Shown one piece after another: positions 2,940 to 28,351 of a DNA stretch of 38,455 bases. The translations under genes were made by a program, and so were the position numbers. The notes under the pieces were generated by a model that saw only the letters and a list, made by a program, of their open reading frames with translations, was not told the DNA's origin and searched no databases. Source of the stretch: a virus; IMG/VR virus record IMGVR_UViG_3300009528_000012, positions 1 to 38,455 of that record; one strand, written 5' to 3'. Every line of letters starts with the position of its first letter. Position 1 is the first letter of the stretch.

Positions 2940-3005
2940 GATCGCTTACAAGATACATCTTTTTCTCTTTGATGTCAACCTTCCTGATTCCAAAGTGGGC
3001 AAGGC

Positions 3006-3034
3006 TTGATTTTCAACCCCGTTCGTGATAGACT
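3006..3034 (+). promoter_or_regulatory. Sigma70-type promoter of the short TIGR-like array
   Basis: TTGATT at 3006-3011 and TAGACT at 3029-3034 are separated by 17 bp. Transcription would start near 3041, seven bases before the first array repeat at 3048. Confidence 0.65.
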
Positions 3035-3047
3035 AATTTAGGTGACT

Positions 3048-3092
3048 TGCGAGCCACGCCTGACTTGAAACCCAAGGCACTCGTGCGAGTCA
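3048..3092 (+). repeat. TIGR-like array, one 36-bp unit (array 1)
   Basis: Repeat A TGCGAGCCA (3048-3056), spacer CGCCTGACT (3057-3065), repeat B TGAAACCCA (3066-3074), spacer AGGCACTCG (3075-3083), closing repeat A TGCGAGTCA (3084-3092, one substitution). Repeats and spacers are each exactly 9 bp, so one A-spacer-B-spacer unit is 36 bp. The same two repeats occur in the same alternation at 9037-9153. From established knowledge, TIGR arrays consist of alternating edge and loop repeats with two short spacers per unit and are processed to 36-nt tigRNAs that guide Nop-domain Tas proteins to DNA. The array sits between a promoter and an intrinsic terminator, which favours transcription on the + strand as an independent RNA of about 120 nt. 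Tas dependence is inference. Confidence 0.85.
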
Positions 3093-3111
3093 AAAGAGCT
3101 TAGAGGTAAGT

Positions 3112-3163
3112 ACCGACAGCGGTCGGTTGACTGGACCTCTCCTTTAACCAGGAGAGGCTTTTT
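3112..3163 (+). terminator. Two hairpins, the second an intrinsic terminator, after array 1
   Basis: ACCGAC (3112-3117) pairs with GTCGGT (3122-3127). Then CCTCTCCT (3136-3143) pairs perfectly with AGGAGAGG (3150-3157) around a 6-nt loop and is followed by CTTTTT. It would end the transcript carrying array 1 just before the gene at 3183. The same promoter, hairpin, terminator, gene layout recurs at 3796-3921 and 20897-21031. Confidence 0.8.
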
Positions 3164-3182
3164 GCATTAGAGGAGGCAAAGT

Positions 3183-3524
3183 ATGAGAAAGTTATGCGTG
3201 GGGACAATCATTACAGACACGGCGGGCGAGTCTATCGTTGGGGACGGTCAACCGATAACGGTCGGGATGAGCCTTCGCCAGTTGATCGAGCGGCAGAATC
3301 CTGGCAGCATGGCCGCGGCACGGACTTTGATTGGCGTGGGCGAAAAGATCGACCAATGCGAAGGCGATACGATCAAGCTCGAAAACGCTGAATACAACCA
3401 TCTCAAGGAACACTTCGATAAGAACCCCGGCTTTTTCACGACCGTTGCCTTTGTGTGTATCGGCGACGCCTTCGAGGAGGCCGACCGCCTGTACCGGGAG
3501 GGGGAGAAGAAGAAAGGAAAGTGA
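3183..3524 (+). CDS. Hypothetical 113-residue protein
   Basis: The ATG is preceded by AGAGGAGG with good spacing. The product is soluble-looking, with no signal peptide or membrane helix, and has a strongly charged C-terminus ending in EGEKKKGK. A Gly/Ile/Val-rich N-terminal strand region is followed by a helical segment around EYNHLKEHF. I do not recognise the family. It lies directly downstream of the array 1 terminator, so it needs read-through of that terminator or an unseen promoter. It heads a short run with the membrane protein at 3532, eight bases further on. Confidence 0.75.
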   Translation: MRKLCVGTIITDTAGESIVGDGQPITVGMSLRQLIERQNPGSMAAARTLIGVGEKIDQCEGDTIKLENAEYNHLKEHFDKNPGFFTTVAFVCIGDAFEEADRLYREGEKKKGK

Positions 3525-3795: not shown

Positions 3796-3824
3796 TTGAC
3801 TTTAGCTCTTTGATCGGGTACGAT
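3796..3824 (+). promoter_or_regulatory. Sigma70 promoter
   Basis: TTGACT (3796-3801) and TACGAT (3819-3824) are separated by 17 bp. The spacer segment TTGATCGGGTA recurs in the promoter at 7519, which suggests a shared promoter family. The start site would be near 3831. Confidence 0.75.
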
Positions 3825-3849
3825 AGTTAGGACATCTTAGGAGTAAGGT

Positions 3850-3905
3850 GGCGGCAAGAGCCGCCGGACCAAGCTCCTCCTGTGAAAAGGAGGGGCTTTT
3901 GTTTT
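3850..3905 (+). terminator. Leader hairpin followed by terminator-like hairpin
   Basis: GGCGGC (3850-3855) and GCCGCC (3860-3865) form a tight stem around AAGA. AGCTCCTCCT (3872-3881) pairs with AGGAGGGGCT (3888-3897) with one G-U pair, followed by TTTGTTTT. The hairpins lie between the promoter at 3796 and the gene at 3921, so the promoter appears to make either a ~75-nt terminated RNA or a conditional leader. Confidence 0.75.
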
Positions 3906-3920
3906 GTGAAGGAGGTAGAG

Positions 3921-4166
3921 ATGGAGTGGCTTAAGCAACGTGTAACTCGAATTATCGGTTTGCTCCTACACCAGGGCGGACCGCGACTGATCGGTTATTT
4001 CCTTACCAGGATCGATCCCACGCAGCTCGCCGACGCTATGCGGCCTCATCTACGGAGATTGATGGAGATGGCCGGACCTGATTGGCAAGCTCAATTCTCG
4101 ACGGCTCTGCGCAAGATCGCGGAGTTTGTCGATGAACTGGTGAATGATCCAAACACAGGAATTTAA
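3921..4166 (+). CDS. Hypothetical 81-residue helical protein
   Basis: The ATG at 3921 is chosen over an in-frame ATG at 3882 because it has a strong GAAGGAGG site 6-7 bases upstream, while the earlier start lies inside the terminator hairpin. The product is predominantly helical and amphipathic, with RIIGLLLHQGG near the N-terminus and DPTQLADAMRPHLRRLME in the middle. There is no clear transmembrane segment or known motif. It lies in the group of small proteins after the tail genes. Confidence 0.75.
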   Translation: MEWLKQRVTRIIGLLLHQGGPRLIGYFLTRIDPTQLADAMRPHLRRLMEMAGPDWQAQFSTALRKIAEFVDELVNDPNTGI

Positions 4167-4174
4167 GGGGCGGG

Positions 4175-4294
4175 ATGAAACTAGCAACGGCCCTTGCCAG
4201 GGCCGCATGGATAAGACATACCTCCTTGGATGCGGGGTTATCGTTTTGGGAGAGGGCGATAGCCCCGCTTTGTCATTACCCTCTCCGGGGGTGA
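4175..4294 (+). other. Two-hairpin spacer that also holds a 39-codon reading frame
   Basis: CGGCCCT (4188-4194) pairs with AGGGCCG (4199-4205) around TGCC. GCGGGGTTATCG (4232-4243) pairs with CGATAGCCCCGC (4257-4268), one G-U, and is followed by TTTG. The pair resembles the other leader and terminator structures of this genome. The same stretch is open from an ATG at 4175, after GGGGCGGG, to a TGA at 4292-4294, encoding a 39-residue peptide beginning MKLATALARAAW. I cannot decide between RNA element and small gene; the strong complementarity favours RNA. Confidence 0.45.
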
Positions 4295-8519: not shown

Positions 8520-8744
8520 ATGAGTATAGGACAGATGATTAAAGAAGCTCGTATACGGAAAGGAATGACGCAAGTCGAATTAGCGAAGGAAATCGGTTGC
8601 GACGATGATAGTATCTTTCGCTGGGAGAAGGAGGTGAATAAACCACTGCCAGTCTTTGTGGGGAAACTGGAACGAGTTCTTGGTGTATGTTTAAAGGAGG
8701 ATAGAGATGACTCTCCAAAGAATAAAAGCCCCTCCCCTGGATAG
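8520..8744 (+). CDS. XRE/Cro-CI family HTH repressor
   Basis: This encodes 74 residues. IGQMIKEARIRKGMTQ, then VELAKEIGCDDDSIFRWE, is a standard XRE helix-turn-helix (residues 3-60), followed by a short charged tail. It has no dimerisation or cleavage domain, so it is Cro-sized. An in-frame ATG at 8514 lies within the -10 element, making 8520 the likelier start on a leaderless transcript. The dyad in its own promoter suggests autoregulation. With the regulator at 7555 it forms the control region of the phage, although no integrase accompanies it. Confidence 0.85.
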   Translation: MSIGQMIKEARIRKGMTQVELAKEIGCDDDSIFRWEKEVNKPLPVFVGKLERVLGVCLKEDRDDSPKNKSPSPG

Positions 8745-9033
8745 GGAAGGGGCGGTCGTCCGGTTGCCAGACCGGACAAAGAATAAAACCAGCAGAGCAA
8801 GTGTAGCACAAAAAACACGCCCGTACAATCCCCCGCTAACCTTCAACGGCCACCGTTTTCTGTGTTTCTTCGGGCAGACTCCCGTATACGGCAAGCAAGC
8901 TCACCTCTATTTCTTGCGAGAGGGGATCCTTGTTGCCCTCACCCCGGGAGAGCTATGCGAACTAGAGCATTCGTGCTTGCCGTTTTGCTTCCCCCAACTT
9001 CAAGCCGTCTTAGCGGTTGAAGGATCCGAGTGA
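8707..9033 (+). CDS. Hypothetical 108-residue protein
   Basis: The ATG at 8707 has AAAGGAGG upstream and lies in the tail of the repressor gene. The first ~40 residues are encoded by DNA with two strong hairpins and flanking direct repeats, and look less protein-like (Arg/Lys/Pro-rich). The rest (NGHRFLCFFGQTPVYGKQAH, then VALTPGELCELEHS) looks like a genuine folded domain with four Cys. The real start could lie further in. Degenerate array-like repeats occur in the last codons. No family was recognised. Confidence 0.5.
   Translation: MTLQRIKAPPLDREGAVVRLPDRTKNKTSRASVAQKTRPYNPPLTFNGHRFLCFFGQTPVYGKQAHLYFLREGILVALTPGELCELEHSCLPFCFPQLQAVLAVEGSE
8716..8788. repeat. Direct-repeat-flanked double hairpin
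   Basis: CAAAGAATAAAA occurs at 8716-8727 and 8777-8788. Between the copies lie a GC-rich hairpin (8728-8753, stem GCCCCT/AGGGGC plus CCC/GGG) and a second perfect 7-bp stem GTCCGGT/ACCGGAC (8757-8777). Confidence 0.75.
8717..8753 (-). terminator. Intrinsic terminator reading on the minus strand
   Basis: Read on the minus strand, the hairpin at 8728-8753 is followed by TTTTATTCTTTG (8727 downwards), a good terminator. No minus-strand gene is evident upstream of it, so either it insulates the region or an unrecognised antisense RNA ends here. Confidence 0.55.
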
Positions 9034-9036
9034 GAA

Positions 9037-9153
9037 TGCGAGCCACCGGCCCTCTGAAACCCATGACTAGAGTGCGAGCCAAGATCGATTTGAAATCCAT
9101 AGTATGTATGCGAGCCACGGATAGAGTGAAATCCACCGTCCCACTGCGAGCCA
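9037..9153 (+). repeat. TIGR-like array, three 36-bp units (array 2)
   Basis: Seven 9-bp repeats alternate perfectly. Repeat A TGCGAGCCA lies at 9037, 9073, 9109 and 9145; repeat B is TGAAACCCA at 9055 and TGAAATCCA at 9091 and 9127. They are separated by six unique 9-bp spacers: CCGGCCCTC, TGACTAGAG, AGATCGATT, TAGTATGTA, CGGATAGAG and CCGTCCCAC. Period A-to-A is exactly 36 bp, and the array begins and ends with A. A and B share TG--A-CCA. This is the edge-spacer-loop-spacer plan of TIGR arrays, whose mature guides are 36 nt with two spacers. The + orientation is inferred from array 1. No own promoter is clear, so it may be cotranscribed with 8707-9033 and the genes from 9175. Iterons are the main alternative but do not explain conserved 9-nt variable spacers. 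Confidence 0.92.
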
Positions 9154-9174: not shown

Positions 9175-9330
9175 ATGAACGAGCTCGAGACGATAACGGT
9201 TGAGCTGTCGATGGATGAATGGAGACTGGTTAGGCAAATTCTTCAAGAGGAGACCGACTTAACCAACAAAATGCGAGGGGAAATAGATTACATATTAGAA
9301 GCCGTCCGCCAAGCGGAGGCGGTGGTCTGA
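9175..9330 (+). CDS. Small 51-residue helical protein after array 2
   Basis: The ATG follows AGGAGGCGG, 21 bases after the last array repeat. The product begins MNELETITVELSMDEW and continues as a charged helix (RQILQEETDLTNKMRGEIDYILEAVRQAEA), which looks coiled-coil prone. Its stop is one base before the next ATG. No family was recognised. Being the first gene after the array, it might share its transcript, but its role is unknown. Confidence 0.7.
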   Translation: MNELETITVELSMDEWRLVRQILQEETDLTNKMRGEIDYILEAVRQAEAVV

Positions 9331-9331
9331 C

Positions 9332-9808
9332 ATGGATACCTCTGAGCGCGACATCCGAAAAGTCGTCGATCCACTGTTGCCGTCAGTCCTGCTATCAAAG
9401 ATCGCCACCGCCAAAGAGAATTACGAACAATTTGCGCATAGCAACTCAAGGACCGCTAAGGCGTTCGGCACACGCTTCCGGGTTCTAATCGGATTCAGCT
9501 ATCCCGGGTTGTGGGTAGACGAAGGTGCAAGCCAGATAGGCACCCGGCGCGGCCGGCGGTTTGAGGGGCGTGGCGCGGCGGTGATTCTCGCCGCACGCAT
9601 TCTCTTTGAAAAGGACTTGCTAGCGATCATGGCGAAACGGAACCCGTTCGACTATAGGAGGTTCCACCGCTTCGTCGAGAATCCCGTTTCGGAAGAGGAT
9701 GCGTCCCTCTGTTGGTACTGGTTCGTGTCTTCCCATGACCCAGAAGAGAAAGAGCAGGCTAAGTTGTTTGTCGATGCCTGTACACAAAAGGAGGTATGCC
9801 GTGTCTGA
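9332..9808 (+). CDS. Hypothetical 158-residue protein near array 2
   Basis: This encodes 158 residues with GGAGGCGGTGG upstream in the preceding gene. The product is mixed helical, with an Arg/Gly-rich central stretch (IGTRRGRRFEGRGAAVILAA), an aromatic C-terminal half (NPFDYRRFHRF, CWYWFV) and two Cys near the end. No catalytic motif is recognised. Because it lies in the same run as array 2, it is one of the few proteins worth testing as a divergent RNA-binding partner, but I see no Nop signature. It overlaps the annealing-protein gene by 8 bp. Confidence 0.7.
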   Translation: MDTSERDIRKVVDPLLPSVLLSKIATAKENYEQFAHSNSRTAKAFGTRFRVLIGFSYPGLWVDEGASQIGTRRGRRFEGRGAAVILAARILFEKDLLAIMAKRNPFDYRRFHRFVENPVSEEDASLCWYWFVSSHDPEEKEQAKLFVDACTQKEVCRV

Positions 9809-10661
9809 TGAGAACACTCTCCCGGAAGAGATTCTGACGCAGGAGATCCCGCTTGAGGAGATCTTTGTGCGGCGTGATAGCAACAAAGCGACCAAGGTCG
9901 GGCGTTATCGTTGTGTGGCATACGTCGAGTGGCCGCGCACGTGCTTCCGGATCCTGAAAGAGGCGGATCCGGACTTCACCGTCCGGGCGATCGACACACG
10001 CGTGGGCGATCAACCCTACTACTCAGCGACGCCGCACGGACAGAAGCGGATCGAGCCACCCGTCCACTTCTACGCCACACGCGAAATCACCGTGTGCGGA
10101 ATCTCCCGGTGCGGCACCGGCGAGGATCAGCGCTCGCCAAAGGCAGCCGAGACCGATGCGAAAAAACGCGCGTCGTTCGACTTCGGCATCGCCCATCAAC
10201 TCAAAGACGAGCAGTGGTACAAGAGTCTCGGCTTGCCGGGTGCGTCGTTCTACTGTCTGTGGCCGCGTGAATACGAGTTCGAGGGGCACGTGCCTCTGTC
10301 TAGGGTTCTCGGCGAGGAGCGCGAGAAGTTCCAGCCCGGTGACTATGCCCAGGAGACGGGAGTCGAGAAGGAAGCTCAAGAGAGTCGTGAATCCGCCAGT
10401 CCGGAGCAGCTCAAGCACACCGCGTTGATAGCGGTGAAGCGCAAGATAGAGCAACTCATGATCACGCCAGACGACGTGCGAACAATCATACGGATTCAGT
10501 TCGAGTGTGCTGAATCCGATGAGATAACCCCGGGCGAAGCGCAGGAGCTCGAAAAGCTGTTCGAGGGCTTCGAGAGCGCGGAGTCGGTCGGCAAGTGGAT
10601 TCAGGAACAGATGGATTTAGAACTAGAACCTGTGCGGGATCTTGAGGAGGTGACCTCGTGA
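9801..10661 (+). CDS. Putative Rad52/DdrA-like single-strand annealing protein
   Basis: This encodes 286 residues from a GTG at 9801 with AAAGGAGG seven bases upstream. The N-terminal half alternates strands with the motif KAAETDAKKRASFDFG, then IAHQL, at about residues 113-133. This closely resembles the conserved helix of Rad52/DdrA/Sak-type annealing proteins (A-x-x-DAxKRAxxxFG). VGDQPYYSATP and REITVCGISRCGTGEDQRS would be strands before it. The C-terminal ~110 residues are acidic and helical. Such proteins anneal complementary ssDNA during phage recombination. It overlaps the SWIM-domain gene, suggesting a recombination module. The family call is from motif and length only. Confidence 0.7.
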   Translation: MSDENTLPEEILTQEIPLEEIFVRRDSNKATKVGRYRCVAYVEWPRTCFRILKEADPDFTVRAIDTRVGDQPYYSATPHGQKRIEPPVHFYATREITVCGISRCGTGEDQRSPKAAETDAKKRASFDFGIAHQLKDEQWYKSLGLPGASFYCLWPREYEFEGHVPLSRVLGEEREKFQPGDYAQETGVEKEAQESRESASPEQLKHTALIAVKRKIEQLMITPDDVRTIIRIQFECAESDEITPGEAQELEKLFEGFESAESVGKWIQEQMDLELEPVRDLEEVTS

Positions 10662-11065
10662 AGGTAACTGCCGCTGAGATCATCGCCAAGATCCCGGAGC
10701 TCCCGAAGGGGTTCGAGAAGCTTGTCCACACGAAGGGGCCGGGTCATGCTGAAGTCGAGTCATTTTCCAACCGTTCGCGTAAACCGTATACGGTCCACAT
10801 TCAATCCCACTCGACGGACCCCGGCGACAGGTCGATCCTCGACGTGGTGTGCTCCTGTCCCGCTACGAAGCCTTGGTGCAAGCATGTCGTGGCGTTCTAC
10901 GCGGTCGCTAAGGAGCTTGTGCCTACCGAAGGGAGTAGCGAGGAGGGAGATACCCCCCAAGGCGGCGAGGCGAAACAAACGGGGTCAGAGATGATCGCAG
11001 AGGGTATAGAAATGGTTGTCAACGGTATCGCGCTGGCTGTAGTGGAGCGCGTAGGAGAAAAATGA
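10658..11065 (+). CDS. SWIM zinc-finger protein
   Basis: This encodes 135 residues from a GTG overlapping the stop of the annealing protein. DVVCSCPATKPWCKHVVAFYAV (about residues 63-84), given here as the CxC...CxH core CSC and CKH, matches the SWIM zinc finger. The C-terminal half is Glu/Gly-rich, then helical (EMIAEGIEMVVNGIALAVVE). In eukaryotes and archaea, SWIM proteins associate with recombination mediators (the Shu complex). Here its tight coupling with a Rad52-like protein suggests a DNA-repair or recombination role. The gene contains ACCGTATACGGT, the best copy of a recurrent palindrome. Confidence 0.8.
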   Translation: MKVTAAEIIAKIPELPKGFEKLVHTKGPGHAEVESFSNRSRKPYTVHIQSHSTDPGDRSILDVVCSCPATKPWCKHVVAFYAVAKELVPTEGSSEEGDTPQGGEAKQTGSEMIAEGIEMVVNGIALAVVERVGEK

Positions 11066-11838
11066 ATTCACGGCCAGAGATCCGAAGCCCGGCTGACTAC
11101 TGCGTCCTGAATCCGGCAGCGAGAGAACAGAACCGCCTTAATTATACTGCATGGTACAAGGGGCACAAAGAGGAGAGGCGCGTTTACAATGCCGAATGGC
11201 GTAAGAGCCACAAAGAGGAGAAGCGTGTCTACCAGGTGGCGTATCGTAAGGGCCACAGAAAAAAAGCACGCCTCTATAGTGCCGAATATCGCAAGGACCA
11301 TCTGCCTGAGATAGCGGCAGGGTGTGCGGCCCGTCGTGCCTTGATCCTCGGTGCCACCTTGGGTGATTTAGCGTCTATCAAGGAAGTCTATAGGCAGGCC
11401 AAAGAGGATGAACCAATCCGCTGCTATTTATGCGGTGAGCTGATTCCCTTAGGCCGCCGCCAAGTCGATCACGTGCACCCGTTATCGAAAGGGGGAAAGC
11501 ACACGGTAACAAATCTAAAGATTGCGTGCAACATCTGCAATAACAGTAAAGGATCAAAGATGCCTAAAGAGGTGGAGGAGCAATCGCAAGGGAGAGGGCC
11601 GCACGGGAGGCCAAAGCTTCGGCGTATGAGCACAACGCGGACGGACCTATCTAAAATGAATCCAATCGATCGCTGGCGTCCGGTCCTTGGGGGTATAGCG
11701 GGTTACGCCCCCGCTGTGGCGCGGTTCGATTCCGCGACCGGTGTGAGTCCAGTGAATCCCTCCTTACTTACGGCGGCGGGGCCGATGCGGGGTTTCCCTT
11801 GCTTTCACCGCTACGGCCCCCTTCGCCCTCTTCTATGA
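11062..11838 (+). CDS. HNH endonuclease with charged helical repeats
   Basis: This encodes 258 residues; the ATG overlaps the previous stop. Residues about 28-85 are three to four imperfect repeats of 14-15 residues (YKGHKEERRVYNAEWRKSH type), common in phage HNH proteins. The HNH core is CYLCGELI, then RQVDHVHPLSKGG and NLKIACNICNNSKGSKMP. The final ~80 residues lack homology to the related gene at 15401, which stops just after its HNH domain. This tail is translated from DNA that also carries a tRNA-like fold (11678-11744), so it may be neutral read-through. It could be a free-standing homing-type nuclease or a packaging-associated one. Confidence 0.85.
   Translation: MNSRPEIRSPADYCVLNPAAREQNRLNYTAWYKGHKEERRVYNAEWRKSHKEEKRVYQVAYRKGHRKKARLYSAEYRKDHLPEIAAGCAARRALILGATLGDLASIKEVYRQAKEDEPIRCYLCGELIPLGRRQVDHVHPLSKGGKHTVTNLKIACNICNNSKGSKMPKEVEEQSQGRGPHGRPKLRRMSTTRTDLSKMNPIDRWRPVLGGIAGYAPAVARFDSATGVSPVNPSLLTAAGPMRGFPCFHRYGPLRPLL
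11678..11744 (+). other. tRNA-Arg(ACG)-like 3' half
   Basis: GCGGG-TTACGCC-CCCGC (11698-11714) forms a perfect 5-bp anticodon arm with a 7-nt loop whose middle would read ACG. Five bases later CGCGG-TTCGATT-CCGCG (11720-11736) is a perfect consensus T arm, and ACCGG after it can pair with CCGGT at 11680-11684. The D arm is missing or compressed to about 13 nt. It looks like a degenerate tRNA or the tRNA 3'-half core of an attachment site rather than a working tRNA. Confidence 0.45.
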
Positions 11839-12515: not shown

Positions 12516-13280
12516 ATGGCGAGTCAACTTAGCGAGAAAGAGAAACGGGAAACCTTACAGCTACGCAGAGAGGGATTGAGTTTGCGCAAGATTGCCCGAA
12601 AAATAGGTTGTAGTGCTCCGACCGTGCAACGTATCTGTGATCCGGCTGCGTACGAAAGAACCAATGCCTGTAATAGGAGGTGTTATGCCAAGCACCGCGA
12701 AAAGCGGCTGGTTAAAGCAAACCAGTATCGCGAAAGTCATCGAGAAAAGTATCGTGCGCTCGTCCGAGAATGGCGCGAAGATCACCATGAAGAGGTCAAG
12801 AAATATCGCAAAGATCACCATGAAGAGATTCAAGCAGGACAGAAGAGATATTATGCCAAAAATCGCGAGGTGCTAAACGCCAAATCTCGGGTAAGGTCTT
12901 CGGCATTTAGCAAGACCCCAAAAGGGAAACTCTGCTGTTGTAACCGTGAACATAAACGCCGCGAGAAAAAAGAACATGGACGCGGCTTTACAATGAATGA
13001 CTATGACCATAAGTGGAAACAACAGGAGGGCAAATGCGCCTATTGTGGCTGCTCTATGGTGCGATCTAAAGACATTAAGGATATTCTCCTTCAAAGCACG
13101 GCCCACTTCCGCAGTAATTATTGTACCATCGATCACATAATTCCTTTATCCCGAGAAGGTCTACATGAGCCAGAGAATATTGTCTTGGCTTGCAGGAAAT
13201 GCAATGCGCGCAAGCACAATAAAACCCCGAAAGAGTATGCATCTTATCTGGCAGAAATCAAAGAGGTGGTAGCGGCTTGA
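12516..13280 (+). CDS. HTH-HNH endonuclease
   Basis: This encodes 254 residues. Residues about 5-42 are an HTH (LRREGLSLRKIARKIGCSAP). They are followed by charged repeats (YRESHREKYRALVREWREDH type, residues about 65-115) and an HNH domain with CAYCGCSM, CTIDHIIPLSREG and NIVLACRKCNARKHNK. Several CC and lone Cys residues precede it and may form a further zinc site. It is the HTH-bearing member of four HNH genes in this arm. The codons are AT-richer than those of structural genes, which suggests independent acquisition. It ends at the promoter of the putative RNA at 13314. Confidence 0.88.
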   Translation: MASQLSEKEKRETLQLRREGLSLRKIARKIGCSAPTVQRICDPAAYERTNACNRRCYAKHREKRLVKANQYRESHREKYRALVREWREDHHEEVKKYRKDHHEEIQAGQKRYYAKNREVLNAKSRVRSSAFSKTPKGKLCCCNREHKRREKKEHGRGFTMNDYDHKWKQQEGKCAYCGCSMVRSKDIKDILLQSTAHFRSNYCTIDHIIPLSREGLHEPENIVLACRKCNARKHNKTPKEYASYLAEIKEVVAA

Positions 13281-14924: not shown

Positions 14925-15404
14925 ATGACTGAAGAGGAGATCCTAAAGCTGTCGGATGAAGAGCTAGATACGCTGGCGGCGGAATTCTCAGGATGGGTTC
15001 TAAGCAAGGACGCGGTGAGGATGCCCGATGGGTCCTCTCGTGACTTGTGGCATTGCGATGTTATCCATGGCGGGGCCCTGGAATGTTTTGACCATCCGCC
15101 TCGCTTTACACGCGACATCGCTGCTGCAATAGATCTGTGCAACGAGATTTATAACCCGATGAGTAAGATTCGGAACGGCGCGTGGGTGTTGAGCACCGTC
15201 GATGGGGGGAAGGACTGTAGCCTAGCGACGCTCTTCTTCGGGGCGCCATCACGCCGTGAGAGGAGGCAGGGGAGGAAGAACCGGCCGTTGAAGGCCCAGG
15301 CGAAGACGGCGAAGAAGGAGATGGCCCGTGCGATCACTTTGGCGTACGTGGTGGCGCACGAGGGCGCGACGGTCGACCTGCGGTATCAACCCGAGGAGAC
15401 GTGA
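14925..15404 (+). CDS. Phage ABA-sandwich-like protein
   Basis: This encodes 159 residues with a strong GAGGAGGTGACC site. The N-terminal EEEILKLSDEELDTLAAEF-SGW segment, followed by PPRFTRDIAAAIDLCNEI (residues about 50-68), matches the pattern of small phage proteins often annotated as ABA sandwich domain. The C-terminal third is basic with a helix (LKAQAKTAKKEMARAITLAY). The role in phages is unknown. It overlaps the HNH gene at 15401 by 4 bp. Confidence 0.65.
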   Translation: MTEEEILKLSDEELDTLAAEFSGWVLSKDAVRMPDGSSRDLWHCDVIHGGALECFDHPPRFTRDIAAAIDLCNEIYNPMSKIRNGAWVLSTVDGGKDCSLATLFFGAPSRRERRQGRKNRPLKAQAKTAKKEMARAITLAYVVAHEGATVDLRYQPEET

Positions 15405-16042
15405 TGAGCTTAAAGGCATGTGAACAGTGCGGCAAAGAGTTTACAGTCAATGTCCATAATCAACGGTTTTGTTCACATAATTGTGAGGCAAAAGCGTGGG
15501 CCGTTCTACATCGCGAAAAGATGCGCGAAAGTTGTCGGCGTTGGGCTGCTTCACATCGAGAAGAACGTCGTGCATATAAACAACATTACGAGCAGGAACA
15601 CCGCACAGAACGGCTTAAACATAAAAGAATGTATTATCGAGAACACTGCGTTAAGGCACTTGAATATGCAGCAAACTATCGCAGAATACATCATGAAGAT
15701 CCTGAGCGCCTAGAGCGATGTCGAGTAGCCGCACGCGAGTACTATAAAAGACACTTATCTGAGTACAATGCGTACAGTACCGTAAGGCGTGCTCTTAAAT
15801 TAGCCGTAACTGTCGGCAATCTGACCGAAATTCGGGAGATATACCATAAGGCAAAGGAAGATCCAAAAGTTAGGTGTTATTTGTGTGGCCGCCTTATCCC
15901 GAAAGGGCACCGCCATGTCGACCATATTGTCCCCTTGACGAAAGGAGGATCTCACAGGCCCTCGAATTTAGCGGTAGCATGTGATAAGTGCAACAGGGAG
16001 AAATATAACAAGATGCCAAAAGAAGTGGGGATATTGTTATAA
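15401..16042 (+). CDS. HNH endonuclease with N-terminal zinc ribbon
   Basis: This encodes 213 residues; GTG at 15401 or ATG at 15404. An N-terminal treble-clef-like ribbon (CEQCGKEF ... RFCSHNCEAK) precedes charged repeats (HREERRAYKQHYEQEHRTER and similar, residues about 45-105) and an HNH domain CYLCGRLI, HRHVDHIVPLTKGG and NLAVACDKCNREKYNKMPKEV. The last part is clearly paralogous to 11062-11838, including the ATLGDLASIKE/TVGNLTEIRE and YRQAKEDEPIRCYLCG/YHKAKEDPKVRCYLCG segments. The gene is AT-rich. Probably a mobile, homing-type nuclease. Confidence 0.87.
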   Translation: MMSLKACEQCGKEFTVNVHNQRFCSHNCEAKAWAVLHREKMRESCRRWAASHREERRAYKQHYEQEHRTERLKHKRMYYREHCVKALEYAANYRRIHHEDPERLERCRVAAREYYKRHLSEYNAYSTVRRALKLAVTVGNLTEIREIYHKAKEDPKVRCYLCGRLIPKGHRHVDHIVPLTKGGSHRPSNLAVACDKCNREKYNKMPKEVGILL

Positions 16043-16049
16043 AGGGGAG

Positions 16050-16253
16050 ATGATGTTGAGAAAGATATTGCATAAAATAGACCGGGAAGTGGGCCGGCAC
16101 ATGACCGCGAAGCGGTGGATCGTGATCTATTTCGCTATCGCCCTTAGTGGATACATCCTCGCATATTTTGGCAGATGGTGGGCCTTTCTCGGCATACCGA
16201 TGGCGATTGTCGGCGTGTTTGGCCTTGTCGGGCACGCGCGGAGGCTGCGATGA
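16050..16253 (+). CDS. 67-residue two-helix membrane protein
   Basis: The ATG follows AAAGGGGAG. Two hydrophobic helices (about residues 22-41, IVIYFAIALSGYILAYF, and 45-60, FLGIPMAIVGVFGLV) flank a short aromatic turn, with basic residues at both ends. Size and topology are holin-like, but there is no lysin next to it. It overlaps the following HNH gene by 4 bp (ATGA), in the region just upstream of the terminase genes. Confidence 0.7.
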   Translation: MMLRKILHKIDREVGRHMTAKRWIVIYFAIALSGYILAYFGRWWAFLGIPMAIVGVFGLVGHARRLR

Positions 16254-17125
16254 CCCGTAGCGAAACTGTCCGACAAGAGGCGATGAGGCTTGACGGCTAT
16301 CGTTGCGTTATCTGCAGCTTTGACGGGCGCGACATCCACGAGCGGCTTGGTGTGCTTTCGACGCATCACGACGAAAAGCTCGGGATGGGCGGTAGTCGGG
16401 AGCTCGACACTGTTGAGAACAGCGTCACGCTTTGCTGGGGCGCCGGAAGCTGTCACCAGCATATCGAGAATCTAGCGCTTGAGATTGTCGAGTGGGACCG
16501 CGCGGCCGGCATCTTGACCGTGATCGACCACCAAGGGGTGCGCTGGAAGAAGAAGGGCCGGATACCTAATGAGCGGCTGTGGTTCTACCGCCGCAAGCTA
16601 GCGGAGGAGCTTGAGCCGGTCGAGGCGCGGATCCAGGGCCTCCACATGATCGACGGCGAGGTGGCAGGGGATCTGTGGCGGCTGTGGAAGGATGACGCGT
16701 ACAAAGTGCTCGACCCCGACATGGTGAGCTTCCGGCAGTACGCGGCTTCCCGGGGGTGGAACGCGCGGCGTGCGAGCAGGATGGCGCACCTGTACGACAC
16801 GGCGGAACAGTTGCGGATACCGTGGCCTCCCGGGGTAAGCGCGACGGACTTCCGCCGGCAACTCAAAGATGCGGGCAAGCTCGAGCCACGGGACTACTGG
16901 CACGTGGCTTTCCGCGATATCCCGACGCTGTTGAGGCTTATCGCACAGGGGGACCTCAAGGTCAAGAGATGCACAAGCGACGAGTTTGACGAGTATGTGA
17001 GGCCGTTGGCGGCGATAGGGTTGAAGATCAACTCATGGTTCAAGCTCAAGGTCGATAAAGGCAGACTGTCAGGCCCGGACGGCGAGGCGATACCGTTCGA
17101 GCGGGTGAAAAAGGGAGCGGGCTAA
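16250..17125 (+). CDS. HNH protein with C-terminal helical domain
   Basis: This encodes 291 residues. The first 85 residues carry an HNH-like zinc site: CVICSFDG, THHDEKLGMGG, NSVTLCW and CHQHIENL. The remaining ~200 residues form an unfamiliar helical domain (FRQYAASRGWNARRASRMAH, DFRRQLKDAGKLEPRDYWH). HNH proteins next to terminase genes often assist packaging in HK97-like phages. Because TasH proteins of TIGR systems combine HNH with a Nop domain, the C-terminal region deserves structural comparison, but I see no Nop motif and do not make that call. Confidence 0.8.
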   Translation: MTRSETVRQEAMRLDGYRCVICSFDGRDIHERLGVLSTHHDEKLGMGGSRELDTVENSVTLCWGAGSCHQHIENLALEIVEWDRAAGILTVIDHQGVRWKKKGRIPNERLWFYRRKLAEELEPVEARIQGLHMIDGEVAGDLWRLWKDDAYKVLDPDMVSFRQYAASRGWNARRASRMAHLYDTAEQLRIPWPPGVSATDFRRQLKDAGKLEPRDYWHVAFRDIPTLLRLIAQGDLKVKRCTSDEFDEYVRPLAAIGLKINSWFKLKVDKGRLSGPDGEAIPFERVKKGAG

Positions 17126-23129: not shown

Positions 23130-23918
23130 ATGAAAGATATCGAATTCAGGGCTTATAAGCTGAGTGAGATCGAGACGCGGGAGAAGGAGAATACTGGCTA
23201 CTTCTCCGGATACGCCTCGGTCTTCGGGAATGAGGACAACTGCGGGACTATTGTCGACAAGGGCGCGTTCAAGAAGACGATTAAAGAGAACGATGGCGTC
23301 TTTCCTATTCTGTTTTTCCATGACCCGACAGTACCTGTCGGCATCGGGCCTTTCCGGGAGGACTCGAAGGGCCTGCTTATAGAGGACGGCGAGATCGACC
23401 TAGATACACAAGCTGGACATGATACGTTCAGCGGGATCAAGCGGGGCTATATCGACCGCCTTTCGATCGGCTTTACAAGGATCACGGAGCAACTCATCAA
23501 TAAAGTGGTGCATCTGAAGGAGTTGAAGCTGTGGGAATCTTCGCTTATCACCCGTAACTTCGCGGCCAACGAGATCGCGCTGATCAGTGATGTGCGGGCG
23601 GTGACCACGGGAATCAGGAGGGTGGATATCGCCCTAGAGAACGGGGCAACTCTGGAATTACAGAATGCCTTGATTGATCTACGGTGCTTGCTAGGGAACG
23701 TTTCCAAGAAACGGGGCGATGATGAAGAAGAGGTTTTGGAAGAGATAAGAGAATTACACGCACTCCTTAAAGGCGACGGGCCGCCTGATGGCACCCCCGC
23801 TGGTAGGGAGCCGCACCTTACGGGACTAGGGCCGCGAGAGCACCCCGATCCTTTGGAGCAGTTCCGCGCCATTGGGCGCGAGATCAGGAAGTCAAAGGTG
23901 GTGAACCAAAATGGGTAA
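23130..23918 (+). CDS. HK97-family prohead protease
   Basis: This encodes 262 residues. ATG 23130 is preferred over GTG 23124, with AGGAGG eight bases upstream. GYFSGYASVFGNEDN, FFHDP (catalytic His) and GYIDRLSIGFT (catalytic Ser) are the U35 peptidase signature. The last ~90 residues are an acidic extension with a coiled segment and Pro/Gly-rich tail, possibly with scaffold function. The enzyme matures the capsid protein encoded next, whose start it overlaps by 8 bp. Confidence 0.93.
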   Translation: MKDIEFRAYKLSEIETREKENTGYFSGYASVFGNEDNCGTIVDKGAFKKTIKENDGVFPILFFHDPTVPVGIGPFREDSKGLLIEDGEIDLDTQAGHDTFSGIKRGYIDRLSIGFTRITEQLINKVVHLKELKLWESSLITRNFAANEIALISDVRAVTTGIRRVDIALENGATLELQNALIDLRCLLGNVSKKRGDDEEEVLEEIRELHALLKGDGPPDGTPAGREPHLTGLGPREHPDPLEQFRAIGREIRKSKVVNQNG

Positions 23919-27263: not shown

Positions 27264-27420
27264 ATCGACCGTAAGGGCGGACCAGATCGTGGCAGCGCAA
27301 ACAATCAGGATCCGCATTAAAGGCATTCATGCGATGAGAGTGCGGCTATGGGTAGCCCGGACGCTAATCTGGCTGGCCCGCAAGACTGGTCGTTTGAGCA
27401 TGAAGATCGAACTGGAGTGA
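27250..27420 (+). CDS. Small 56-residue protein
   Basis: The ATG has AAAAGGAG upstream. Gly/Ser at the N-terminus, then basic, moderately hydrophobic helices (GIHAMRVRLWVARTLIWLAR). The ARTLIWLARK stretch might associate with membrane or another protein. The stop is one base before the connector gene ATG. Function unknown. Confidence 0.6.
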   Translation: MSLGESTVRADQIVAAQTIRIRIKGIHAMRVRLWVARTLIWLARKTGRLSMKIELE

Positions 27421-27421
27421 A

Positions 27422-28351
27422 ATGGGAGCCGTCACCGACCGCCTGACGATCTCGCTGGAGGAATTGCGCGACTACGTGCACCTCACCCCGGCGGACGAGG
27501 GGACTGCCGTGATGGAGTCCCTCGGCCTCGGCAACGCGGGGCCGTGGACGCCCGCGCACGCACCCGACTTGATCCTGACGACGCTCAGGGTCTACGCCGG
27601 GGCCGTAGGCGGGGCGCTCGGCCTGTTGACCGAGATAACGGACTATATCGTCGACGAGGAGACGCAAGTCATCACGCGGGTTGCTACGGGTGCGATTGAG
27701 GATACGGATCTCGTGGTCGCCGAGTACCGCTATAGCTCTGTGGCGTGCGCCGAGGATGTGCTGATCCTTGCGATGGCCGCAGCGGCCACGAAGGCGGCGG
27801 ACGAGTATCTGAACAACCCGTTCGAGGGGATCGTTCCGCAGGTGAAGTTTACCGCCGTCCTGGCCAGCCATGCGATCACGGTGGATAGCGTCTGTTTCAC
27901 CGCTGCGGACGCGAAGGACGAGGACAAGCGGGAGTTCGTTGTCGGTGTGGATGATTCAGAGACGGCGGACAACTTCTGCGAGTTGGTTAACTCGACCACG
28001 CTCGGCGGCTCCTACGGCGCGGTCGGTGTCGAAGGAGTGATTGCCACAAACACCGATGGCACGGTCAAGTTCACGAAGCGCTACCCGCGAGTGGAGGACA
28101 TCGTGGTCACAAGCTCGACCGCCACCCGGCTGTTGGTGCGGAATGTGAGGACCGAGCTTGCTGTTCCCGATCCGGTCAAAGTGTGGTGCCTGCTATACGT
28201 GAAGCGCCACTTCATGAACCGCGATGGGCATCTACAAAGGAACGTAGACGGCCTCGGGTCGACCATGTGGATACCGATAAAGGCGGAGGGCCAGGGTATC
28301 GGCGAGGACTACACGCTGATAAGCCTGCTTCGCTTACTGCCGGGGTTCTGA
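27422..28351 (+). CDS. Head-tail connector (gp6-like) with inserted beta domain
   Basis: This encodes 309 residues. The start LTISLEELRDYVHLTPADEG and the end VWCLLYVKRHFMNRDGHLQR with TLISLLRLLPGF resemble gp6-type head-completion adaptors. The middle (about 105-235) contains a separate domain (VDSVCFTAADAKDEDKREF, VEGVIATNTDGTVKFTKRYP) of a kind often inserted into phage structural proteins. Position immediately before the head-closure protein supports the call. Length is larger than the usual ~100-200 residues because of the insertion. Confidence 0.72.
   Translation: MGAVTDRLTISLEELRDYVHLTPADEGTAVMESLGLGNAGPWTPAHAPDLILTTLRVYAGAVGGALGLLTEITDYIVDEETQVITRVATGAIEDTDLVVAEYRYSSVACAEDVLILAMAAAATKAADEYLNNPFEGIVPQVKFTAVLASHAITVDSVCFTAADAKDEDKREFVVGVDDSETADNFCELVNSTTLGGSYGAVGVEGVIATNTDGTVKFTKRYPRVEDIVVTSSTATRLLVRNVRTELAVPDPVKVWCLLYVKRHFMNRDGHLQRNVDGLGSTMWIPIKAEGQGIGEDYTLISLLRLLPGF

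Follow-up and report, generated by a model that had tools for sequence, protein, structure and literature searches.

TIGR (Tandem Interspaced Guide RNA) arrays were described by Faure 2025 (PMC12045711). They alternate an edge and a loop repeat that both start with UG and end with CCA, the loop repeat is A-rich at its centre, and an extra covarying pair forms between edge repeats. The edge repeats are cut in their middle during processing, the processed tigRNAs are 36 nt long, and arrays of one unit that carry full edge repeats undergo processing too (PMC12045711). The natural role and the targets of TIGR systems were left open in that study. Its survey began with Tas genes and looked for arrays in the 5 kb surrounding them (PMC12045711). 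For this reason, it was blind to arrays lacking tasA.

We analysed a stretch of viral DNA of 38,455 nucleotides (IMG/VR record IMGVR_UViG_3300009528_000012, hereafter the window). The element at 3048-3092 is almost certainly a TIGR guide unit, i.e. an element of a known kind. It shares with the published arrays (PMC12045711) the alternating UG/CCA edge and loop repeats, two 9-nt spacers, the 36-nt period and a terminator after the last edge repeat, and the repeats are those of the TasA-linked arrays in 64 viral records. It differs from them in having one unit, where 5 to 15 are usual, and in its setting, a closed phage genome without detectable tasA, tasR or tasH and with a second array 6 kb away. 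As far as we could find, the TIGR literature contains no description of an isolated one-unit array in a closed phage genome lacking Tas.

Anatomy and identity of the one-unit array

The elements of the one-unit array, the signals proposed for its transcription and the second array are the following.

3006-3034, plus strand: proposed promoter TTGATT-17-TAGACT, weak (TTGATT at 3006-3011, TAGACT at 3029-3034), with a predicted start near 3041
3048-3056, plus strand: first edge repeat TGCGAGCCA, from the UG of box D to the CCA of box C (motif definition from PMC12045711)
3057-3065, plus strand: spacer A, CGCCTGACT
3066-3074, plus strand: loop repeat TGAAACCCA, with an A-rich centre
3075-3083, plus strand: spacer B, AGGCACTCG
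3084-3092, plus strand: last edge repeat TGCGAGTCA, with one substitution, within the box C half
3136-3163, plus strand: intrinsic terminator of the one-unit transcript, CCTCTCC TTTAACCA GGAGAGG CTTTTT (8 pairs, 5 of them G-C; loop of 6)
9037-9153, plus strand: second TIGR array, three units with the same repeats, between ORF 8707-9033 and the small ORF 9175-9330

An earlier note on this DNA had read 3048-3092 as five consecutive elements of 9 nt, and we found this layout, the repeats and the coordinates to be exact. The UG starts, CCA ends, A-rich loop centre, 9-nt spacers and 36-nt period reproduce the published TIGR anatomy. There are two distinct alternating repeats, of the 8-12 nt class, in a 36-nt unit. 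The extra edge-to-edge pair of the unit is G-C, and the terminal edge repeat is followed by a rho-independent terminator. The substitution that the note had reported in the last repeat was also seen: TGCGAGTCA ends with TCA instead of CCA. The substituted half should be absent from the mature 36-nt RNA. The same TGCGAGTCA is the terminal edge repeat at 7 of the array ends compared, in several other arrays, and this recurrence fits the view that constraint is relaxed in the half repeat missing from the mature RNA.

The finding itself consists of only three repeats, and one could ask if it reflects chance, another CRISPR-like array or part of a coding sequence. The probability of this is next to nil. 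The pattern TGCGAGYCA-N9-TGAAAYCCA-N9-TGCGAGYCA has four matches in the window and none in 100 dinucleotide shuffles, and 71 other records share both repeats; the reversed repeat pattern has no match in the window. This agrees with the judgement of the note that the recurrence of the repeats 6 kb away, where we count three units, is very unlikely to be due to chance. The one-unit array is crossed only by reading frames of at most 42 codons and is thus noncoding, and no Rfam family matches the window at gathering score.

The promoter proposed in the same note fared less well. The sequence TTGATT-17-TAGACT is indeed present, within the intergenic stretch beside a divergent minus-strand gene (2469-2939), but it stands close to background: it matches the sigma-70 consensus at 8/12 positions, and such 8/12 sites occur at 2.46 per kb per strand in the window. 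A second site overlaps it, at 3010, and a scan with a cut-off of 9/12 did not list it. Upstream of the unit, a plus-strand tail gene ends at 2472. Because the immediate upstream neighbour is the minus-strand gene 2469-2939, a plus-strand transcript must either begin within 2940-3047, which is plausible, or come about by read-through of the tail gene. The TIGR literature predicts for such a locus a plus-strand single guide, with a precursor of about 120 nt and a product of 36 nt (PMC12045711).

Several features of the surroundings deserve mention in their own right. Gene 2469-2939 stands alone on the minus strand, and a related phage (G046) has a homologue of it; it has no match in PHROGs, and its motif HESNHIEQF suggests, in our own reading, a membrane metalloprotease. 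No relatives were found for the neighbouring gene 3183-3524. The region 3796-3898 may encode another small RNA: TTGACT-17-TACGAT (9/12) is followed by about 65 nt containing a GGCGGC hairpin, with a strong terminator at 3871-3898. A very strong terminator of 16 pairs (4232-4268) lies 3' of ORF 3882-4166.

TasA and the same repeats in other viral records

We scanned 2.9 million viral contigs for the repeats. The scan returned 51 stretches, and 75 with a wider pattern, together corresponding to 71 records besides the window. A TasA-like protein of a single family is encoded in 64/71 of these records. Among solved proteins, the family matches TasR with 3.8e-77 and TasH with 1.7e-37. Pfam recognised no extra nuclease domain in the five members scanned, and for this reason we call the family TasA-like. 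An array unit lies at most 44 bp from the tasA frame in 39/39 loci, and within 50 bp in 22 further loci; these distances were taken from the stop-to-stop frame and are thus approximate by some codons, and some of the loci are near-duplicates. In the 39 loci, all units (346/346) lie on the tasA strand. This and the terminator that the note had reported, for which we found a good 8-pair stem followed by CTTTTT (3136-3157), support the plus-strand direction that it had assigned to the one-unit array.

The extra pair between edge repeats could be followed across these records. Of 468 distinct units, 449 have G at position 6 of the upstream edge repeat paired with C at position 3 of the downstream one, 9 have A-T, 6 have G-T and 4 are unpaired. 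An A at position 6 goes with a T at position 3 in 9/11 units, versus 6/455 when position 6 is G (Fisher p 1e-13); this count is inflated by related records, but the pair is the one predicted by the structure. The non-paired combination of the same edge columns is no more frequent than independence would predict.

Contigs binned to Smithella, Planctomycetota, Thermoplasmatota and Acidimicrobiaceae likewise carry TasA together with these repeats. In four loci (L049, L026, L020 and L011) the tasA frame continues into the downstream array, whose 36-nt units correspond to 12 codons each, and these TasA proteins thereby have C-terminal tails with a repetition of the ASH...ETH type.

The search for a Tas protein in the phage genome

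The window starts and ends with a direct repeat of 123 bp, and an ORF of 998 aa is continuous across the joined ends. On these grounds we take it as a complete circular genome of 38,332 bp; completeness is not estimated in the record. Its content is that of an ordinary tailed phage: terminase, portal, protease, capsid, tape measure, tail, a DnaD-like replication gene and several HNH genes. We searched all six of its frames for a Tas protein with a profile, switching every filter off and going up to E = 10, and found no match. A Tas profile built from a 29-member alignment had no match in the window either. When the Tas profile was compared with the ORFs of the window by hhalign, the probability was at most 2.7%, whereas held-out divergent TasA proteins reached 99.5-100%. 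As a control of sensitivity, the same profile finds TasR, TasH and the IS110 transposases IS621 and ISCro4. The phage genome thus has no detectable Tas protein and apparently lacks a complete TIGR-Tas system. The interpretation in the earlier note was partly supported: its dedicated plus-strand guide agrees with the TIGR literature, its promoter is near background, and it had not named the TIGR system and had overlooked the missing partner protein.

Does the phage instead encode a divergent Tas-like effector of its own, with the arrays working in cis? Two proteins without an assigned fold leave some room for this, ORF 9801-10658 (286 aa, TasA-sized, 650 bp 3' of the three-unit array) and the HNH protein 16250-17122, both with single-sequence models of too low confidence. 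Yet the profile that reaches TasR, TasH and IS621/ISCro4 matches nothing in the window, and the tasA of relatives abuts the array, where the flanking ORFs here encode 108, 51 and 158 aa. We consider an own effector very doubtful. The HNH protein 16175-17125 was also considered as a TasH and rejected, as it shows no Nop similarity, no relatives were found and its structure model is unusable.

Other searches concerned the phage as a whole. PADLOC reported no defence gene beside the array; a helix-turn-helix regulator was matched via its DNA-binding domain, and there was one marginal hit. None of 49 records with terminase relatives carries these arrays, and no close relatives of the phage were found in the collections searched. 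Three HNH genes (11062-11838, 12516-13280 and 15401-16042) have relatives of up to 55% identity in G033, a record with an array and no tasA; among the array loci of the first scan, G033 is the only one with relatives of these genes. In the tail gene, an exact tandem duplication of 81 bp occupies 1209-1370, with a third, more diverged copy from 1371.

The phage is not the only virus with such arrays. Seven other records lack a Tas match; in five of them (G012, G019, G043, G101 and G107) the array sits at a contig edge or close to one. The remaining two have intact arrays without tasA on either side: G009 (62 kb; array at 1066-1155 of locus L013, with one contig end about 3.3 kb away) and G033 (14.7 kb; array at 3003-3299 of locus L040, with flanks of 3 kb and 11 kb). 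Including this phage, arrays lack tasA in 3 of about 67 informative records. As a separate observation, the eight units of L040 are immediately followed by a ribosome-binding site and a start codon.

These patterns bear on a further explanation, in which an ancestral tasA stood beside the array and was recently lost, leaving both arrays as functionless remnants. Arrays of relatives nearly always touch tasA, such that a lone array could be the product of a deletion, and arrays without tasA are rare. On the other hand, the repeats show no decay (53/54 edge and 36/36 loop positions are intact across both arrays), which makes simple decay unlikely, although a recent loss would look alike. Further, 6 kb separate the two arrays, and their transcription contexts differ. 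The one-unit array has 90 bp of clear intergenic space and its own terminator, while no terminator lies directly 3' of the three-unit array. The intact arrays of G009 and G033 equally lack tasA. Hence, we regard the remnant explanation as unlikely. Close to the three-unit array, a strong leftward terminator (8753-8728, minus strand) lies inside the plus-strand region of regulator and early genes and suggests a minus-strand transcript from about 9000.

Spacers, targets and a possible guide in trans

We derived the target geometry on one strand from the reported 8-nt 3' overhangs and the C-5 rule: spacer A, then the reverse complement of spacer B, with at most 2 bp between them. The predicted target strand for the unit at 3048-3092 is CGCCTGACT-CGAGTGCCT, which is absent from the phage. 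Self-targeting by any of the four units was considered and rejected, the best matches being no better than those of shuffled spacers. In IMG/VR, we found one exact 18-nt match with a 2-bp gap, in another viral contig. We give it no weight, as a few are roughly expected by chance, an estimate made without the exact base count of IMG/VR. The opposite pairing geometry gave no exact match in IMG/VR. Over all 468 units, targets in 1.4 Mb of phage DNA were no more frequent than for re-paired (shuffled) spacers, and the same pair of spacers was found in none of the other viruses.

We lean slightly towards a mini-TIGR locus resembling viral CRISPR mini-arrays: a Tas protein provided in trans would take up its tigRNA. 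The one-unit array would then be a small noncoding gene, with rightward transcription starting at about 3041 and ending at the terminator near 3163. Its transcript would be cut in the middle of both edge repeats to give one 36-nt tigRNA. This RNA may load onto a TasA-type dimer with Nop domains provided by a resident prophage, a host locus or a co-infecting virus. A donor in trans is plausible given that TasA with this repeat class is found in the cellular bins listed above. The DNA site would span 18 bp, with each of the two 9-nt spacers pairing with a different strand. For a TasA free of nuclease, binding would be expected rather than cutting. As with viral CRISPR mini-arrays, the guide might redirect the Tas complex of another element against a competitor, or simply occupy Tas. 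The mini-arrays (PMC11656645) are likewise virus-borne, have one or two spacers, are expected to use a host effector and play a role in competition between viruses. They differ from the locus in the window, which has TIGR repeats and split spacers and no CRISPR repeats. The chances seem to us evenly balanced that stand-alone phage TIGR mini-arrays without tas genes use or block the Tas of other elements sharing the cell, in which case the one-unit locus would be a dedicated single guide.

If true, guide and effector can come to reside in separate genomes, as has been the case for CRISPR, and arrays lacking a Tas gene point to cooperation or conflict among viruses within one cell. The one-unit locus would also offer a natural single-guide gene for tests, and a search that starts from arrays, a concept absent from the published survey, would be of use.

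A solitary unit without a target could also act as an RNA decoy, occupying a resident Tas such that the phage escapes or disturbs the system, as Racrs do with CRISPR-Cas. The unit is solitary, the phage lacks an effector gene and no target was found for the spacers. In addition, a 9-bp stem (3043-3051 with 3084-3092) can close the unit, giving the third most stable fold of 467 units. The pairing is made possible by the substitution in the last repeat and by the 5-nt TGACT before the first edge repeat; the fold has -16.8 kcal/mol, and -12.0 with the usual CCA ending. Yet 47/2000 random flanks equal this stem, the unit is complete, with two normal spacers and both boxes, and looks like a working guide, and TIGR systems are not known to protect cells from phages (PMC12045711). 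Like the solitary repeat units of Racrs (PMC10651486), the locus is a solitary unit in a phage without effector, with a predicted small noncoding transcript and signals of its own; unlike them, it is a full guide unit with two spacers, and we found no report in the literature of TIGR inhibition by such an RNA. The decoy explanation is, in our opinion, quite improbable. The stem also recalls the TIGR stem-loop arrays (PMC12045711), in that it could close the single unit. But the unit has dual repeats and is by definition a dual-repeat array: the stem could represent a form between both kinds of array, or be due to chance (47/2000).

Returning to the guide units of other records, adjacent ones have identical or nearly identical spacer pairs, or share spacer A and differ in spacer B, in G025 (9984-10100), G017 (49563-49643) and G001 (23714-23794). 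The same pattern of shared pairs or shared spacer A is seen between neighbouring units of G035 (27343-27387 and 27559-27603). Arrays thus seem to grow by the copying of whole units followed by divergence of the spacers, which bears on how TIGR arrays expand.
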